This document shows positions 20,169 through 43,065 of a stretch of 48,662 nt of DNA, in pieces. The translations under genes were made by a program, and so were the position numbers. Origin of the DNA: Nitrospira sp. CG24C. Lineage in GTDB: Bacteria; Nitrospirota; Nitrospiria; Nitrospirales; Nitrospiraceae. A model generated the notes under the pieces. It did no database searches. It worked only from the letters and a program-made list of their open reading frames with translations, and was not told the DNA's origin. The stretch lies in contig NEWR02000017.1 of NCBI GenBank assembly GCA_002869885.2, positions 54,597-103,258 on the forward strand, written 5' to 3'. The number at the start of each line of letters is the position of its first letter. The first letter of the stretch is position 1.

Positions 20169-20205
20169 CTGAGTCTCCTCTGGTTAGGCCCCACAGATGC
20201 CCACA

Positions 20206-20320
20206 GAGATGCGCTCTAATCGAATGGTCAATGGTGGATGTTTAATGATGAATTTGACGCAATTCTCGCATTGAACATTCATCATTGACCATCGAACATT
20301 GCACTGGCAGAGCGCATCTC
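20206..20320. repeat. Heptamer inverted-repeat element in the rpsO-pnp leader
   Basis: An outer 12-bp perfect stem (GAGATGCGCTCT at 20206-20217 with AGAGCGCATCTC at 20309-20320) encloses two heptamer arms. The left arm is AATGGTC AATGGTG GATGTTT AATGATG AATTTGA (20223-20257). The right arm is CATTGAA CATTCAT CATTGAC CATCGAA CATTGCA (20269-20303). All are in exact 7-nt register and the arms are roughly complementary. The transcript would form a long hairpin between rpsO and pnp. The remainder of the 20169-20387 gap shows no gene. Confidence 0.75.
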
Positions 20321-20387
20321 AGTGTTCACCTGTGCGACTGACTACTGCCTGCTGTTGTGCCCCCTGGCGCAACAGCGAGATGGGATC

Positions 20388-29575: not shown

Positions 29576-29606
29576 CTGCTGGCGGACTTTTTCAGCATCC
29601 TGCTAA
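29576..29606. repeat. Dispersed hairpin motif, copy 1
   Basis: The stretch around GGACTTTTTCAGCATCCTG is shared almost exactly with 43035-43065; both copies have a short complementary stem (TGCTG...CAGCA) around the T-run. It may be a terminator-like or mobile intergenic element. Only two copies are seen here. Confidence 0.5.
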
Positions 29607-33939: not shown

Positions 33940-33982
33940 CCCGCATTACTCATGAACGCTTCTGCTGCAATCGCCAATGTTC

Positions 33983-34068
33983 AGGCGAGAGGCACGGGGC
34001 TAGTGGCGAAGCCTTCCAGTCGAAAAGACAGCTCTTCCCTCTAGCCACTAGCCTCGTGCCCCTAGCCT
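33983..34068. repeat. Heptamer inverted-repeat element (CTAGCC family)
   Basis: The left arm is AGGCGAG AGGCACG GGGCTAG TGGCGAA (33983-34010). The right arm is CTAGCCA CTAGCCT CGTGCCC CTAGCCT (34041-34068), in register. A 17-bp stem forms between 33991-34007 and 34044-34060 with one G-T wobble. It sits between the convergent ends of ugd and the first HEAT gene and may act as a terminator for both. Confidence 0.7.
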
Positions 34069-34090
34069 GGCCGGTTGGCTTACAGCCTCG

Positions 34091-34801
34091 TTACGTCAGG
34101 CGCGGCACCTCGACAACCTTGGCCGCATCGTTAACTTTCGGCTTGTAGCCCATCCGGTCCAACACCTTCATCACCCGGCTCTTCAGACGATCGTCGGCCT
34201 CGGCAAGCGCCGTGGCCAGCGGCTCGACGGCGGGCTTTCCGATTTTACGGATGATCTCCGTTACGGATTGTCTGATCTCATCTTCCTCCGACACCAGCAA
34301 AGGCACGAGCACTGACACAGCCGGGCCGCCGATTTTGATCAAGGAATCATAGGCGCGCTGCCTGACATCCCCGACTTCATCAGCCAACGCATCGACCAAC
34401 GGCTGCACGGCGCGAATTTCTTTGATTTCACCCAGCACTTCAGCCGCATACTTTCGATTGAGCCAGTGGCTATCTTTCAGGTCCAAGAGCATCGCGTCAG
34501 CTCGCGCCGCATTGGGGTCCTTCGCGCGAATCCGAAAGCTCTTGGCAATACGCCGCCCGCCTTCTTCCACAACACGGATGGTGGCGCCGTCTCCCACCTT
34601 GAGCTTCTTCAGATCTTCAAGCGCCTCGTCATCGACGTCCAGTACGACTGTCTTCCCATCGTAGGCCAGCAGTTCGACTTCGAGCTGTTTCAACTCAGGA
34701 TTCACCGCGACGACTCGTTCCGTAACGAGATTGAACCCGTCTTTCTTCGCGCCGCCCTTCGGACCGATCTGAATAAGCTTGGGAGCTGTTTCATCCGCCA
34801 T
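34091..34801 (-). CDS. HEAT-repeat protein with N-terminal beta domain
   Basis: A 236-residue protein. Residues 1-95 are a beta-rich domain (NLVTERVVAVNPELKQLEVELL, then VGDGATIRVVEE) of no recognised family. Residues about 100-215 hold roughly four HEAT/PBS-lyase repeats such as WLNRKYAAEVLGEIKEIRAV. No signal peptide is seen, so it is likely cytoplasmic. It is the last of five consecutive HEAT genes on the minus strand, 28 nt from its neighbour. HEAT repeats serve protein-protein scaffolding; a partner is not evident. Confidence 0.8.
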   Translation of the reverse strand: MADETAPKLIQIGPKGGAKKDGFNLVTERVVAVNPELKQLEVELLAYDGKTVVLDVDDEALEDLKKLKVGDGATIRVVEEGGRRIAKSFRIRAKDPNAARADAMLLDLKDSHWLNRKYAAEVLGEIKEIRAVQPLVDALADEVGDVRQRAYDSLIKIGGPAVSVLVPLLVSEEDEIRQSVTEIIRKIGKPAVEPLATALAEADDRLKSRVMKVLDRMGYKPKVNDAAKVVEVPRLT

Positions 34802-34829
34802 GAGATGTATCCTTTAACAGTGAAATAAA

Positions 34830-35594
34830 TTACTGCTTTGCACTCCATCCAAGACTCGCCAACACCCCTTCAACCGTTTCCTGCACCATCGTATTCTCAT
34901 CTTCGAGCAGCGGAAGCAAGGGGTCGATGGCCTGCTTGGCCCCGAGCCGCGCGAGCGACTCCGCCGCATTCCGCCGCACAAGCCAGTCTTCGTCCTTGAG
35001 CGATTCAATCAACGGATCGATTCCACGGGCATCGCCGATCTTACCCAGTGCTTCGGCTGCATGACGCCGCACCATCCAATTACTGCCCAACAACCCGTCG
35101 ATCAAGGCATCCACGGCCCGCGCGTCGCCGATTTTTTTCAGCACGCGCGCCACGTCCTCACGCACTGTGTGATCGGTCAGCGCTTCGACCAATCCAGGCA
35201 CGGCGCGCGCATCGCCGACGCGCTCCAGCGCCCACACTGCGGCAGTCCGCACTGCGCCGTCTTTATCCTTGAGCGCCTTCACGAGGGGATCGACGCCCCG
35301 AGGGTCTTTCAGCTTCCCCAATCCCGACGCAGCCTGCTCGCGAATCGCCCACTCATCGTCCCCCAACGCTTCGATCAACGAATCGACGACGGATGGACCG
35401 ATTCGCACAATCGCGCTGGTCGCCGCTTCCCGGACGAGGACATCTTCGTCCGCCATAAGCCCGATCAGCGGGCCTACCGCATCCTCACCCACCTGACTCA
35501 AACTGGCAATCGCATGGTCACGAAGCGCGTCATTGTCGTCCCGCAGGGCCCCGATTAATTGTTCGATCCGTTCAGCCTGCACATTGTCACTCAT
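34830..35594 (-). CDS. HEAT-repeat protein
   Basis: A 254-residue protein built almost entirely of about eight regular 31-residue HEAT/PBS-lyase repeats, for example DEWAIREQAASGLGKLKDPR and NWMVRRHAAEALGKIGDARG. No catalytic domain, signal peptide or membrane segment is seen. The start at 35594 overlaps the stop of the upstream HEAT gene by 8 nt (ATGAGTGA), showing translational coupling. A longer frame starting at 35633 would lie deeper inside that gene and is rejected. Confidence 0.85.
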   Translation of the reverse strand: MSDNVQAERIEQLIGALRDDNDALRDHAIASLSQVGEDAVGPLIGLMADEDVLVREAATSAIVRIGPSVVDSLIEALGDDEWAIREQAASGLGKLKDPRGVDPLVKALKDKDGAVRTAAVWALERVGDARAVPGLVEALTDHTVREDVARVLKKIGDARAVDALIDGLLGSNWMVRRHAAEALGKIGDARGIDPLIESLKDEDWLVRRNAAESLARLGAKQAIDPLLPLLEDENTMVQETVEGVLASLGWSAKQ

Positions 35595-36687
35595 CGTCGT
35601 CCTGCCCTCCCTGACTCCCGACAGGTGTCCCATCCAACGCTTCCAGCTTGTCGGCGATCAATCCGGAATTGTACGCGACCAACCCGTCCCGATCCGTTCT
35701 CAATCGATCGAACAATTCCTTATACGGCCGCAACACATCCACATCTTTCACTTTGGCTAAGGCTTCCATGGCATAGACCCGCAGGGGCCTGATGGGAATG
35801 GCCTCGATATAGAGTTGCGCCGGCCTGGCATCGCCAATCAGACCCAACGATTTCATCGCCAGCTCCTTCACACCCGTATCTTTATCGACCCGCAACCGTT
35901 CCATCAAGGGCTCGACGGCTCGCACATCACCGATCTTTCCCAGTAAGTCAGCGGCTGCCTCACGGATCACCCAATCGTCATCCTCCAGGTACTCGATCAA
36001 AATCTCCACGCTCGGACGCCCGATGGCCAGGAGATTGACCACCGTGCTCATACGAGCCTCTTCCCGTTCGCTCAACTCCTCGATCGAGCGAAGCCCATCG
36101 AATACCTCGTCGATCCGTTCACGAATCGCGCTCAGTTTTTTGAGTGTCCTCACGGCAATATCGCACACGGCCGGCTGCCCCATGGCATTGATGAACGAAT
36201 CCGCCGAACGGGGGTCGAGCAGATGTTCCAGCATCTTCGCAGCCATGATCTGCGCTTCCGGGTCCTGATGGACCAACATCTCGCAGAGCGGCGCGATCGC
36301 ATTAGGAATGACTCCCAACAACTGCGAGGCCGCCAGGCGAATCTCCTCATCCTTCGATTCATAGAGCAGCGAGGCCAACGCCGCCGCGGTCTTCTCGTCC
36401 AGCACCCCTGCCATATGTTCCAAAGCTGTAGCCCCGGCCTTGCGGACAGCCTCATCCTCATCGCGGAGTAAGCCGACTAGCGGCACGCCGGCCTGGGGAT
36501 CGTTCACCCGCGCCAGCATCGCCGCCACCTCGGCTTTCAATGCCGGCAGCCCGGTTTGCAGCGCGTGAATAAGCGCCTGTACCGCGCGCGGCCCGCCCGA
36601 CAGGCAGGCTGCCGTCGCGCGCATCCGCCGCCAGTCCTCTTCATGGACGAGTTCGGAAATCAGCGTTTCGATCGTTTCTTTTGGCAT
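35587..36687 (-). CDS. HEAT-repeat protein, divergent member
   Basis: A 366-residue helical-repeat protein. Repeats are less regular than in its neighbours in the N-terminal half (CLSGGPRAVQALIHALQTGL, EDEAVRKAGATALEHMAGVL) and become typical at DDDWVIREAAADLLGKIGDV. A non-repeat helix around IRERIDEVFDGLRSIEELSE interrupts the solenoid near the middle. The C-terminus is acidic. There is no signal peptide. It lies 108 nt after the next HEAT gene, the gap being filled by a heptamer element. Confidence 0.82.
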   Translation of the reverse strand: MPKETIETLISELVHEEDWRRMRATAACLSGGPRAVQALIHALQTGLPALKAEVAAMLARVNDPQAGVPLVGLLRDEDEAVRKAGATALEHMAGVLDEKTAAALASLLYESKDEEIRLAASQLLGVIPNAIAPLCEMLVHQDPEAQIMAAKMLEHLLDPRSADSFINAMGQPAVCDIAVRTLKKLSAIRERIDEVFDGLRSIEELSEREEARMSTVVNLLAIGRPSVEILIEYLEDDDWVIREAAADLLGKIGDVRAVEPLMERLRVDKDTGVKELAMKSLGLIGDARPAQLYIEAIPIRPLRVYAMEALAKVKDVDVLRPYKELFDRLRTDRDGLVAYNSGLIADKLEALDGTPVGSQGGQDDDE

Positions 36688-36712
36688 GGCGCGAGAACCT
36701 GGTATGGAATCA

Positions 36713-36789
36713 GTGCTGAGTTTTGAGTGCTGAGTGCTGAGCTATCAATCCAACATTCAACATTTCCCATTCACCATTCAACATTGCGC
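36713..36789. repeat. Heptamer element with two motif families side by side
   Basis: Eleven consecutive in-register heptamers: GTGCTGA GTTTTGA GTGCTGA GTGCTGA GCTATCA (36713-36747), then ATCCAAC, ATTCAAC, ATTTCCC, ATTCACC, ATTCAAC and ATTGCGC (36748-36789). The first family matches the element next to tRNA-Pro; the second matches the rpsO-pnp element. It fills the gap between two HEAT genes. Confidence 0.8.
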
Positions 36790-36795
36790 TTAGCA

Positions 36796-37881
36796 TCATG
36801 AGATGCGGCCTGCCCGCCAGCCCACCCTCGCCAACGTCTCTTTGACATGGTACCGGATGTTGTCATCCGACTCGCGTGCCAGGAGAGCCCGTAACGGCGC
36901 AATCACAGCACCCCCGAATCGAGTCAGCGCGTCGGCAGCGTCCGCTCGCGTCACCGTATAACGGAGCGCCTTCAGGAGCGACGGTATGGCCGTCTCGTCC
37001 CGGATCGCGCCCAAGGCCCGGACTGCCTCGCCTAACGTGAGTCTCTCTTCATCCCACTGATCGCCACAGCCGTCGATCGGCTGCGAGATCTCAGGCCGCT
37101 CTATACCCTTGAGCACGTCGATCAGCACCGGTACGGTACGACGATCGCCGATCTGGCCCAGCGCCGCAACCGCCAGCGGCCGCAGCCCCGGCTCTTTCAT
37201 CGCTGTGATGAGGAACTCCACCGCGCGCGCATCGCCGATCTGACCCAATGCGCGGATTGCATCCTCGCGAACCGCTCTATCCCGATCGTTGAAAAGCACC
37301 GACAAGAGCGGATCCACCGCCTCAGGCAACTTCGTTTTCCCCAAGGCCTCTACCGCATGTAGCCGCACCAGCCATTCAGTATGGGTCAGAGCGGCGAGCA
37401 GCGATGACAACGACGCCTCCCCGATAGCTGCGAGGGCTGCCGACGTCTCCTCGCGCACGGCCTTCACTTTGTCTTGCAGCAGCGGCACCAGCGGCGCCAC
37501 CGTTCCAGGGTCTTGAATCCGGCCTAGGGCCTTGGCGGCGTGCATCCGCACAATCCAGTCGGGGCTCTTGAGCGCCTTGACGAGCGGCGCGAGCACTCGC
37601 GCATCGGCAATGTTGGCCAACACCGATGAGGCCAATTCCTGAACCGTGAGCTCCGGATCGGAAAGACAGGCGCCCAGCGGTGTTACAGCCGGCTCTCCAA
37701 TGGCCAAGAGAGCGCCGATAGCCGCATCGCGAACCGCGCGATCGCCGTCACGAAGTACGGACACCAAGGGTGCCACAGCCCTCGGATCCCGAAGCGTGCC
37801 CAGCATAGCAGCGGCCTCTTCACGAATCGCCCAATCCTCGTCTTTAAGCGCGGCGATCTGTTCGGCTACCATGTCTGCCAC
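36796..37881 (-). CDS. HEAT-repeat protein
   Basis: A 361-residue solenoid of about eleven HEAT/PBS-lyase repeats, for example DEDWAIREEAAAMLGTLRDP and DRAVREDAIRALGQIGDARA; the latter is nearly identical to a repeat in the next gene, showing recent duplication or conversion. The C-terminus WRAGRIS lies outside the repeats. Start: GTG at 37881 has GAGG 5 nt upstream; an ATG at 37872 is an alternative. The longer open frame to 37968 crosses a heptamer element and is rejected. No targeting signal is seen. Confidence 0.83.
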   Translation of the reverse strand: MADMVAEQIAALKDEDWAIREEAAAMLGTLRDPRAVAPLVSVLRDGDRAVRDAAIGALLAIGEPAVTPLGACLSDPELTVQELASSVLANIADARVLAPLVKALKSPDWIVRMHAAKALGRIQDPGTVAPLVPLLQDKVKAVREETSAALAAIGEASLSSLLAALTHTEWLVRLHAVEALGKTKLPEAVDPLLSVLFNDRDRAVREDAIRALGQIGDARAVEFLITAMKEPGLRPLAVAALGQIGDRRTVPVLIDVLKGIERPEISQPIDGCGDQWDEERLTLGEAVRALGAIRDETAIPSLLKALRYTVTRADAADALTRFGGAVIAPLRALLARESDDNIRYHVKETLARVGWRAGRIS

Positions 37882-37903
37882 GCAAACCTCAATCCCAAGA
37901 GCC

Positions 37904-37981
37904 GTGAAAGGTGAAACGTATCTCGTGAAGCGTCGTTCGTTTCCGGATTCGAATGTTTCACGTCTCACGTTTTACGTTTCA
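37904..37981. repeat. Heptamer inverted-repeat element (CGTTTCA family)
   Basis: The left arm is GTGAAAG GTGAAAC GTATCTC GTGAAGC GTCGTTC (37904-37938). The right arm is TGTTTCA CGTCTCA CGTTTTA CGTTTCA (37954-37981). The arms are complementary in style and in 7-nt register. It lies in the gap between two HEAT genes; the same family recurs at 42931-43016. Confidence 0.78.
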
Positions 37982-38000
37982 CAAACGATTTCGCAGCTTG

Positions 38001-39365
38001 CTAGCCTCTTGAGGCGAAATCTCCCGACGGACCAAATCGACCTGTATCGCCAAGAGGCATGTCCACTCTGGCATTGTCGGCCACGCTTGAATTGACAGTG
38101 ATGTCTTCCGGCGCAGGCATCCAGCCCAATTTTTCGAGCGTTTCAAGCGCCAATTGCCGCAAAGCATCTTTCGCCGTGAGTCGAACCGACGCATAGGAGA
38201 GCACCCGTTCCCCTTCCGCAATGACTTCGGACGCCTTCGGGTCATAGAGAAAGGCGATCAACGGCTCGATCGCCGTATCGCCGATGGTGGCCAGGGCGGC
38301 ACTGGCCTTCTCACGCAACACGCCATCCTTCAACAGCATGATCAAGTCTGGAATGACGCGCGGGTCACGGAACTGGCCGAGCGCCGTCGCCGCCGCTTCC
38401 TTGATAAAGGCATCTTCGCTGACGATACAACCCGGGGTCGGGGTTCCGTCCTGTCGAATACCCTTGCCCTTCAACGCGTCGAGCACCGGAGCCAAGGCGC
38501 GAGGATCGCCGATCATCCCGAGCGACGCAATGGCATGCCGCTTCACGACGCCATCCTTCATCGCCTCGATCAAGGCATCGATGGCCCGTGGGTCGCCAAT
38601 CTGGCCCAGAGCGATCGTGGCATCTTCGCGCACAGCCCGATCCGGATCTTTCAACGCGGCAATCAAGACGTCGACGACTTTTGCGTCTCGCACCCAGGTT
38701 CGACCGATTTGATAGTCGGTCGTCATTCCACCGAGTGCTCGGGCAGCGTGGCACCGGACTACATAATCCTTATCCTTGAGGCATTCGATCAGCGGATCGA
38801 CGGAAGGCTGGCCGATAGAGATGAGTGCGGTTCCGGCCGTTTCTCGAACCGTTTTCGAAGGATCGCGGAAGAGTTTGCTCAGAACCGGGATCGCTCTCGG
38901 ATCGCAGATCTTGCCCAGCGCCTCCGCCGCCGCACTCTTCACAGCGCCATCACGGTCTCGACAGACGAGCATGAGCGCCTCGACGGCTCTCCGGTCCTTT
39001 ATTTCCCCACATGTTTTTGCGGCATATTCGCGGACACGCCAGCGCTCATCCTTCAATGCCACGATCAAACGGTCAACGACTACAGCTCCCATCGAGGCCA
39101 TAGCCCCCACGACATCGTTTCGCACATCCATGATGGAATCGTTAAATAGGACGATGAGCGCCTCCACCGCTTTTGTCCCCCCGATTCTAGCCACGCCCCG
39201 TCCTGCATGGCCTCGGACAGCCCAATATTCGTCTCCACAGGCGCCGACAAGCGCATCCAACGTGGTGGGATCGGCGAGTTCGGCGAGAGCCTTGGACGCC
39301 TCCTCACGGGTCGCGTCGTCGACATCCTCAAGTGCTTCTAACAGATCGCCGAGTGTCTGGGCCAT
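38001..39365 (-). CDS. HEAT-repeat protein, largest of the cluster
   Basis: A 454-residue protein with roughly twelve HEAT/PBS-lyase repeats, such as DERWRVREYAAKTCGEIKDR and DRAVREDATIALGQIGDPRA. Two loops interrupt the solenoid (MTTDYQIGRTWVRDAKV and GKGIRQDGTPTPGCIVSEDA). The tail after residue 420 (EDITVNSSVADNARVDMPLG) is not repetitive. No signal peptide or catalytic domain is evident. The start at 39365 has GAGGAG upstream. It is 22 nt from the small exported-protein gene before it. Confidence 0.85.
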   Translation of the reverse strand: MAQTLGDLLEALEDVDDATREEASKALAELADPTTLDALVGACGDEYWAVRGHAGRGVARIGGTKAVEALIVLFNDSIMDVRNDVVGAMASMGAVVVDRLIVALKDERWRVREYAAKTCGEIKDRRAVEALMLVCRDRDGAVKSAAAEALGKICDPRAIPVLSKLFRDPSKTVRETAGTALISIGQPSVDPLIECLKDKDYVVRCHAARALGGMTTDYQIGRTWVRDAKVVDVLIAALKDPDRAVREDATIALGQIGDPRAIDALIEAMKDGVVKRHAIASLGMIGDPRALAPVLDALKGKGIRQDGTPTPGCIVSEDAFIKEAAATALGQFRDPRVIPDLIMLLKDGVLREKASAALATIGDTAIEPLIAFLYDPKASEVIAEGERVLSYASVRLTAKDALRQLALETLEKLGWMPAPEDITVNSSVADNARVDMPLGDTGRFGPSGDFASRG

Positions 39366-42374: not shown

Positions 42375-42929
42375 GTGAGTGGGAAAAGTCGTCAGCTCAT
42401 TGTTGCGTTGATTGCTATTGGCTGTTCAGCCTTGCTGCCGCTGCATTCGTTTGCTGCGGATTCAGGCGATGTCCGAACCCATGCGGAACAATCCTTTAAT
42501 CAACTCAAGCAGCAGGCAGAGCAACAAGACTCCCCGAAAGCGTCGTCCGGGATGCGCCTCAAAGTTGAAGATCGCAACAGCTATTCATCCGATCAGTACC
42601 TTGTCGGCAATGGCCAGGGAGACATGGCGAAAGGACAGATTGTCTGCCAGCGGGTGTCGGAACTCTCTGCCCGCACCGACTTGGCCAAGCAGATTCGGAT
42701 TCTGGTGAAAGAACACATGGTCGACCGGGTTCGTGAGCGGACAGGCCGGGAAGCGGAACAGGACATCGAACTCACTAGGGAAGAAATCGTCCAGGAATAC
42801 CTCCAGGGCGTGAAGATCGTGGATCGCCAAATCGATGAAGGCAGCAAAACTTGTAGCGCCACCGCCATCATGCCCAAAAGCCAAATTCAGCCCAAACCGG
42901 CACCAGACCGCCCCGAGCCCACCCGTTAG
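42375..42929 (+). CDS. Exported LPP20-like protein
   Basis: A 184-residue protein with a signal peptide (cleavage likely after SFAA, about residue 28). The mature part has a Gln-rich helix (EQSFNQLKQQAEQQ) and a region similar to LPP20-type domains (GQGDMAKGQIVCQRVSELSARTDLAKQIRILVKEHM), with two cysteines that could pair. It starts with GTG at 42375, 3 nt after its neighbour; its ribosome-binding site (GGAGG) is inside the end of that gene, so the pair is translationally coupled. Periplasm or outer membrane is inferred. Confidence 0.72.
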   Translation: MSGKSRQLIVALIAIGCSALLPLHSFAADSGDVRTHAEQSFNQLKQQAEQQDSPKASSGMRLKVEDRNSYSSDQYLVGNGQGDMAKGQIVCQRVSELSARTDLAKQIRILVKEHMVDRVRERTGREAEQDIELTREEIVQEYLQGVKIVDRQIDEGSKTCSATAIMPKSQIQPKPAPDRPEPTR

Positions 42930-42930
42930 A

Positions 42931-43016
42931 CGTGAATCGTTAAACGTGAAACGTTTCGGAGAAAGAGCACTCAACCGTCCTACGTTTCACCTTTCACGTC
43001 TCACGTTTCACGTTCC
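42931..43016. repeat. Heptamer inverted-repeat element (CGTTTCA family)
   Basis: The left arm is CGTGAAT CGTTAAA CGTGAAA CGTTTCG (42931-42958). The right arm is ACGTTTC ACCTTTC ACGTCTC ACGTTTC ACGTTCC (42982-43016). Both are in 7-nt register and mutually complementary. It begins one base after the stop codon of the preceding gene and could end its transcript. Confidence 0.78.
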
Positions 43017-43034
43017 TCTGAGCGAAGCGAGAAC

Positions 43035-43065
43035 GATGCTGGGGGGCTTTTTCAGCATCCTGATA
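43035..43065. repeat. Dispersed hairpin motif, copy 2
   Basis: GATGCTG (43035-43041) pairs with CAGCATC (43053-43059) around a G-run and T-run. Compared with 29576-29606, the stretch CTTTTTCAGCATCCTG is identical and the flanks are similar. Confidence 0.5.

Follow-up and report, generated by a model that had tools for sequence, protein, structure and literature searches.

Intergenic DNA in this Nitrospira genome carries many dispersed elements, mostly 50-110 bp long, which we take with moderate confidence to be short non-autonomous mobile hairpins of a REP/MITE-like kind, their arms being inverted arrays of 7- or 9-nt units with a family-specific core. A mobilising activity acting in trans would spread whole elements, and slippage or unequal exchange would add and remove units, so that the phase stays as point mutations drift the sequence. 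A protein, most simply the one that mobilises the elements, may recognise each unit separately, and the elements would settle where they are tolerated, in intergenic DNA and, at some sites, on the tips of existing hairpins. Three features were unexpected, namely a nonamer class, conservation that follows the individual unit and the swapping of hairpin tips. With dozens of related genomes available, and related elements of different ages among them, slippage, constraint and mobility become separable.

Heptad and nonamer elements in the window and the genome

The window, that is, the whole stretch of 48,662 nucleotides that was analysed, corresponds to positions 54597-103258 of contig C9 in its source genome (G000; 2.99 Mb, 22 contigs). 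By its PNPase, which shares 99% identity with the enzyme of a MAG labelled Nitrospira lenta and 96-98% with those of MAGs CG24A, RSF6, RSF8 and RSF48, it belongs to the Nitrospira lineage (Nitrospirota) and not to the filamentous cyanobacteria. Genes were called with a longest-ORF heuristic, phase was tested against 3000 dinucleotide shuffles per locus (p at lag 7 and over any lag 3-15), and hairpin strength was expressed as a fold z-score against 200 shuffles. The sequences agree with those given in the earlier note. It had described six intergenic loci as consecutive 7-nt units that keep phase, and this stands for five of them, which beat the shuffles with any lag of 3-15 allowed (p 0.0003-0.0027). 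Lag-7 identity was 0.541 at 20223-20303, 0.443 at 33983-34068, 0.643 at 36713-36789, 0.549 at 37904-37981 and 0.582 at 42931-43016. It does not stand for 30-83, where the identity of 0.426 gave p = 0.018 at lag 7 and p = 0.17 over the lags.

This last locus (E1) is a weak heptad hairpin (TGCTGAG / CAGCACT; fold z -2.1) lying directly 3' of a tRNA-Pro gene. E2 (20223-20303; AATGGTC / CATTGAC; fold z -6.5) caps the conserved stem of the pnp leader, and E3 (33983-34068; GGCTAGT / CACTAGC; fold z -5.9) is joined to the left end of a second dispersed repeat (CCCGCATTACTCATGAACGC...; 33940-33974, forward strand). At E4 (36713-36789) a GTGCTGA array and an ATTCAAC array adjoin, as the earlier note had it; these are two unlike arrays side by side and make a poor hairpin (fold z -1.0). 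E5 (37904-37981; GTGAAAC / GTTTCAC; fold z -5.8) lies upstream of a HEAT-repeat gene, and E6 (42931-43016; CGTGAAA / TTTCACG; fold z -3.1) is a heptad hairpin of the F1 family. The stretch 34091-39365 contains a group of HEAT/PBS-lyase repeat genes, and four scanned proteins there match HEAT_2. The listed GTG start of the HEAT gene at 36796-37968 overlaps E5; since in many relatives the alignment begins only near residue 30 (query base 85-89), this start is probably spurious and the true one probably lies near 37880. A plasmid search with 36600-38100 of the window gave no match.

The periodic signal extends well beyond these loci. In a 448-kb sample of the genome, some stretches of which were selected for motif matches, intergenic lag-7 identity was 0.2845 vs 0.2496 in coding DNA, and lag 9 was nearly as high as lag 7 in intergenic DNA (0.2824). 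A motif-blind sample of seven stretches (140 kb in total, one adjoining the window) held 14 intergenic segments at lag 7 and 16 at lag 9, together with 4, 1, 0 and 1 at lags 4, 5, 6 and 8 and 0, 0, 0, 2, 6 and 0 at lags 10, 11, 12, 13, 14 and 15. Simple extrapolation from these 140 kb suggests ~300 period-7 and ~300 period-9 arms per genome. The earlier note had tied its case to an intergenic excess at period 7 and to phase above that of shuffled sequence, and when tested both were found; however, it had spoken of heptamers only, and the nonamer class that it lacked proved equally common in the motif-blind stretches. There, 10 heptad elements cover 559 and 12 nonamer elements 771 of 17,410 intergenic bases. 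Some of the sequence between Nitrospira genes consists of repeat debris, and this bears on promoter and small-RNA calls in these nitrifiers.

When the 91 ungapped intergenic hairpins of the 448-kb sample were sorted by their best arm period, 23 had period 9, 17 had period 7, 13 had period 14 (a class owed partly to chance, with few comparisons in short arms) and 12 had some other value, the remaining 26 having no arm period. By eye, the units fall into the families GTGAAAC (F1), GTTGAAT (F2), GTTCTGA/GTGCTGA (F3), GTTCGAG (F4) and GAAGGCT (F5), with the GGCTAGT type of E3, AAAAGTC at pnp and the nonamer AACCAAAYR as further types. At up to two mismatches, ACGTTTCACGTTTCACG occurs at 148 places in the genome vs 1 for the reversed control. 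A nonamer core like GGTTGAACGAAACTAACC is common to many elements, with 46 matches at up to five mismatches, some of which are one element counted on both strands.

Dispersed copies, gain and loss

A genome search with 42925-43020 returned 39 matches, including the query and partial ones; 40 of 60 first-look candidates were scored. Fourteen near-full-length relatives of E6 were found, 13 at 77-86% identity over 79-94 bases and one at 74% over 86, and these matches bear out the claim that unit families recur at distant loci. When aligned, E6 and its 14 relatives have a core and position-specific units in common from end to end; the phase has therefore been inherited through copying and not re-made at each locus, and the copying process that had been offered as one explanation is supported by these dispersed relatives. 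Like REPIN/REP sequences, they are short intergenic palindromes dispersed in many copies. Their units run head to tail at period 7, as in heptamer SSRs; near-perfect iteration of one unit, the other mark of such SSRs, was not found in the 15 F1 copies, whose left arms hold 26 distinct units among 60 and right arms 18 among 60.

At up to two mismatches, the F1 motif is present in 32/32 genomes of the genus, at 13-343 places each. At up to one mismatch it is present in 38/46 genomes of the window's family and in 8/152 other Nitrospirota genomes, several genomes outside the family also having control matches, up to 19. The nonamer motif was detected in 29/32 genomes of the genus (0-384 places) and in 36/198 of the phylum sample, with a reversed control that is not clean because the pattern matches the same arrays. 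Such uneven bursts of motif counts fit mobile elements better than a common regulator.

The window was compared between its own genome and eight relatives (nine genomes). The site 33940-34090 measures 151 bp in the own genome vs 10-12 bp in 8/8 relatives, E3 thus being filled here only. The E4 site was read by eye, and for L128 with a regular expression, in the 28 loci, from 32 genomes of the genus, that have the HEAT gene 36796-37968: E4 arrays, whole or partial, were present in 15, an E3-like array in two and none in 10, and one locus was cut off. In G005 a deletion appears to have joined a heptad arm and a MITE end at this site, a possible route to chimaeras. For the 10 of the 15 arrays that were caught by a regular expression, the lengths were 43, 51 (four loci), 65 (three), 72 and 79, after correction for a one-base difference in the expression in three; 9/10 are equal modulo 7, and 41 of 56 pairwise gaps above 1 are multiples of 7, although the pairs are not independent. 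The slippage of whole units that the earlier note had envisaged is supported by these lengths.

The intergenic region 34802-34829 is 28-32 bp in the own genome, G018, G025, G008 and G004, longer in G007 (an AGGCTGA-type element), G002 (a nonamer) and G003 (a MITE), and masked in G005. The G007 insertion bears AGATTACG(G) at both ends vs the empty site of G004, a duplication of 8-9 bp, and is the sole such case, no target-site duplication being found in the other filled/empty pairs. Dispersed AGGCTGA-type loci in the own genome are related to this insertion, whose heptad signal is weak (lag-7 identity 0.340; simple shuffle, p = 0.008), falling below the period-7 segment threshold and with lag 14 slightly higher than lag 7.

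An excess of heptamers in bacteria has long been noted, and we know of no settled explanation of why the number is seven. Polymerase slippage might by itself build heptamer microsatellites locally, with shared units arising by chance or drift, and the whole-unit indels fit this, as does the abundance of heptamers, reported as the commonest class of long SSRs, for which polymerase contact has been put forward (as summarised in the available parts of PMC4679880 and PMC4692102). However, the shared cores argue against slippage as the sole cause, since copies have core and position-specific units in common end to end; moreover, a period-9 class is equally common, the arms are inverted and whole elements are present or absent between relatives. 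We consider slippage alone very improbable.

Conservation of the unit and what might read it

The least expected result is conservation at the level of the unit. Column entropy of the 15 F1 copies, which have common ancestry, is structured at phase 7 (p = 0.0004), and no structure was seen at periods 4-6 or 8-10 (p 0.34-0.99). Within the unit GTGAAAC, G1, T2 and A4 are kept in both arms and positions 3 and 7 are mostly free; A5 and A6 are kept chiefly in the right arm and vary in the left, and C7 is invariant in the second left unit, which leaves the unit pattern imperfect. In nonamers the columns show a phase-9 effect that is weaker (p = 0.035). Pooled unit counts, in which units are not independent, are uneven by position in F1, F2, F3 and the nonamers; F5, represented by one arm of 6 units, showed no unevenness (p 0.50), and no F4 arm passed the threshold. 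The kept phase is thus due in part to inheritance by dispersed copies, and conservation in F1 also follows the unit, which suggests that each unit is read by some factor. The same pattern could partly have arisen if variants were exchanged between units. Per-unit conservation supplies a motif, with GTnA at its heart, for seeking a binding protein.

Such a reader might be a global DNA-binding regulator or nucleoid protein, with paired binding-site arrays kept in place for regulation, a reading drawn by analogy from Geobacter metallireducens that we regard as rather unlikely. It would accommodate unit-wise conservation in the two arms, which lie on opposite strands, and the opposite-strand MTYCTGA pairs of G. 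metallireducens share TYCTGA with GTTCTGA here, though not the first base. However, positions are unconserved between species, unit families substitute for each other at one site and counts range from none to hundreds within one genus. Divergent-gene placement, at 8 of 55 elements, is likewise not enriched (depletion p 0.05 by base share, 0.20 by count).

The elements could instead work as RNA, forming hairpins that terminate transcription or stabilise mRNA at the 3' ends of genes, which appears distinctly unlikely. Placement lends this some colour, as E1 lies after a tRNA and, in the 36 tandem-gene cases among the 55 elements, the upstream stop is nearer than the next start (median distances of 17.5 and 47 nt, p = 0.07); yet convergent-gene placement, at 11/55 vs 46/235 intergenic regions, shows no enrichment, nor does placement suited to terminators, and Rfam 15 gave 0 matches above the gathering score in the window. 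In the 15 F1 copies, 80.0% of cells are paired vs 79.8% when shuffled, and two-sided changes number 5 vs 4.0 pairs, so compensatory change is not above shuffles. G-U pairs outnumber A-C in transcript sense by 51 vs 38 (p = 0.20), with 14 vs 14 in non-periodic hairpins. Selection on hairpin structure, which the earlier note had raised, thus finds neither covariation nor a significant G-U excess, and selected RNA structure is rejected for now. Together, the pairing, G-U and placement tests leave an RNA role without support and a protein that reads the units as a possibility.

Architecture of this kind has precedents. Inverted heptad arrays are already known from Xanthomonas and G. metallireducens, so the inverted-arm class proposed in the earlier note does exist here but, as the available parts of these papers have it, is not new to bacteria (PMC4692102, PMC2700814). 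The parts at hand of the G. metallireducens paper describe three classes, of 8, 24 and 21 pairs, as hypothesised global-regulator sites: classes 1 and 2 are octamers or 8-9-mers, with IS elements near class 1, and class 3 comprises opposite-strand pairs of five tandem MTYCTGA heptamers (PMC2700814). The present elements resemble class 3 as multicopy tandem heptamers paired on opposite strands, a likeness of architecture only, but they differ from all three in having 148-356 places per motif and in their drift, polymorphism and tip swapping, which do not figure in that description as far as it was available (PMC2700814). The Xanthomonas heptamers GGGNATC / GGGANTN are intergenic and heterogeneous and form convergent inverted pairs, 70 in one genome and 75 in another, with gene context mostly equal in both and variable length; in the accessible text a G-quadruplex is proposed and association with mobile elements is generally lacking (PMC4692102). 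They consist of one G-rich unit, whereas here there are many units, hairpin arms and copies with cores. TAACTGA repeats of Beggiatoaceae, cyanobacteria and some Bacteroidetes are also intergenic 7-nt tandem units of patchy spread; however, in the available account they are direct, of one sequence and mostly just upstream of starts, whereas ours are inverted, drifting and not at starts (PMC4679880). For Nitrospira, the openly accessible literature on the genus and on heptamer or palindromic repeats, as far as it was surveyed, yielded no such elements, and neither copy families nor a nonamer class, conservation by unit or swapped tips were found in it.

Exchanged tips, MITEs and a proposed mobilising activity

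The rpsO-pnp intergenic region (20169-20387, reverse strand) contains the conserved stem GAGATGCGCTC ... GAGCGCATCTC that bears E2. By analogy with E. coli, where pnp has an autoregulatory leader of the RNase III type, the hairpin is perhaps such a leader. Scored by eye in 31 relatives and the window, the stem is conserved and the tip variable, with three or four unit families at the apex: AATGTTC-type heptads in the window, L024, L026 and L037; GTGCTGA-type in L010, L017 and L035; AAAAGTC-type in L012, L020, L023 and L036; and AAAGTG-type, perhaps one family with the last, in L021, L039 and L040. At the remaining loci among the 31 the tip is short or of another kind. L010, which has the closest PNPase, differs at 5 of the 279 bases that precede the tip and at 1 of the 42 that follow, and its tip is another one. 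The strict period-7 threshold is exceeded in 9/72 sequences of the region; around pnp in named genomes, one other intergenic region has period-7 segments, in 2 loci.

Next to E6, at 43047-43061 on the reverse strand (converted from C9:97643-97657), lies the end (AGGATGCTSAAAAAG) of a palindromic MITE of ~122-126 bp, and a further MITE end next to a nonamer-type remnant (GGTTCAACCAAAC) is found at 29587-29601 on the same strand (converted from C9:84183-84197). This MITE, with ends CAGGATGCTSAAAAAG, occurs in the own genome, with examples at L093 6133-6254, L105 7672-7796 and other loci; AGGATGCTSAAAAAG ends within one mismatch number 218 in the genome vs 0 for the control. The interiors are variable, and by eye the left end often stands right behind TAA or TAG. 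Two complete MITEs have F1 interiors, in the relatives G003 and G007. A MITE end lies within 160 bp on one side of 9/15 F1 copies vs 10.5% of random intergenic places, and 0/15 F1 copies of the own genome have ends on both sides. The MITE was rejected as a general vehicle of heptad elements, with 3/43 candidates by MITE ends vs 8.6% at random. An GAAGACNGTT end is found on one side of 10/33 nonamers and 6/43 heptad candidates, vs 1.7% at random, and on both sides of none of these 33 and 43.

At the E6 site the right MITE end is retained in the own genome (F1 element), G007 (F1), G018 (canonical) and G004 (nonamer, with the end altered), and a 904-bp allele of G025 also ends with it; G005 and G002 are empty, G008 gives an ambiguous match (2196 bp) and no match was found in G003. 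Replacement of the tip on a kept stem is thus shown at particular sites, not everywhere: the general test of nesting in flanking palindromes was mildly positive (6/55 vs 3.1% at scores of at least 8; 0/55 vs 0.6% at scores of at least 12), so swapping is established at those sites only. A reading built on this has, throughout the genome, a dedicated protein recognise inverted arrays of 7- or 9-nt units one unit at a time and insert or exchange them at palindrome apices, those of the pnp leader and of two MITE families, with the stems staying in place; taken as a whole, we hold it to be unlikely.

For the mobile hairpins favoured here, no transposase was linked to the elements. In REPIN/RAYT systems movement takes place in trans, and REPIN/REP sequences have a GTAG-type tetranucleotide at the foot of the stem. 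The present elements resemble REPINs as small dispersed intergenic palindromes but, as far as the available parts of those papers allow comparison, differ in having no adjoining RAYT and in arms of periodic units (PMC3116915, PMC2817692). The genome has one RAYT gene (PF01797), whose 3.3-kb locus is free of heptads, nonamers and MITE ends. Five genomes have at least 50 nonamer places and no PF01797 match, four of them 70-81% complete, and nonamer and RAYT counts do not correlate (rho 0.20, p 0.27). A RAYT is disfavoured as mobiliser, being a single gene unflanked by the repeats; yet the number of F1 places is correlated with that of RAYT genes (rho 0.53, p 0.002), a link that may run through genome completeness.

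The second dispersed repeat, which starts CCCGCATTACTCATGAACGCTTCTGCTGCAATCGC, has 9 copies at up to six mismatches in 790 kb (own sample and 8 relatives), with sites at window 33940-33974 and in L098, L099, L102, L143, L155, L156 and L159. It adjoins a heptad hairpin in the window (E3) and, as judged by eye, also in L099. Two longer MITEs, of 474 bp (L101 4655-5128) and 254 bp (L099 12808-13061), have interiors that look hairpin-like by eye. A palindrome of the form ...TTCGCCCTGAGCTTGTCGAAG...CTTCGACAGGCTCAG..., which we take to be common in environmental genomes, was also seen at L097 11298-11381.
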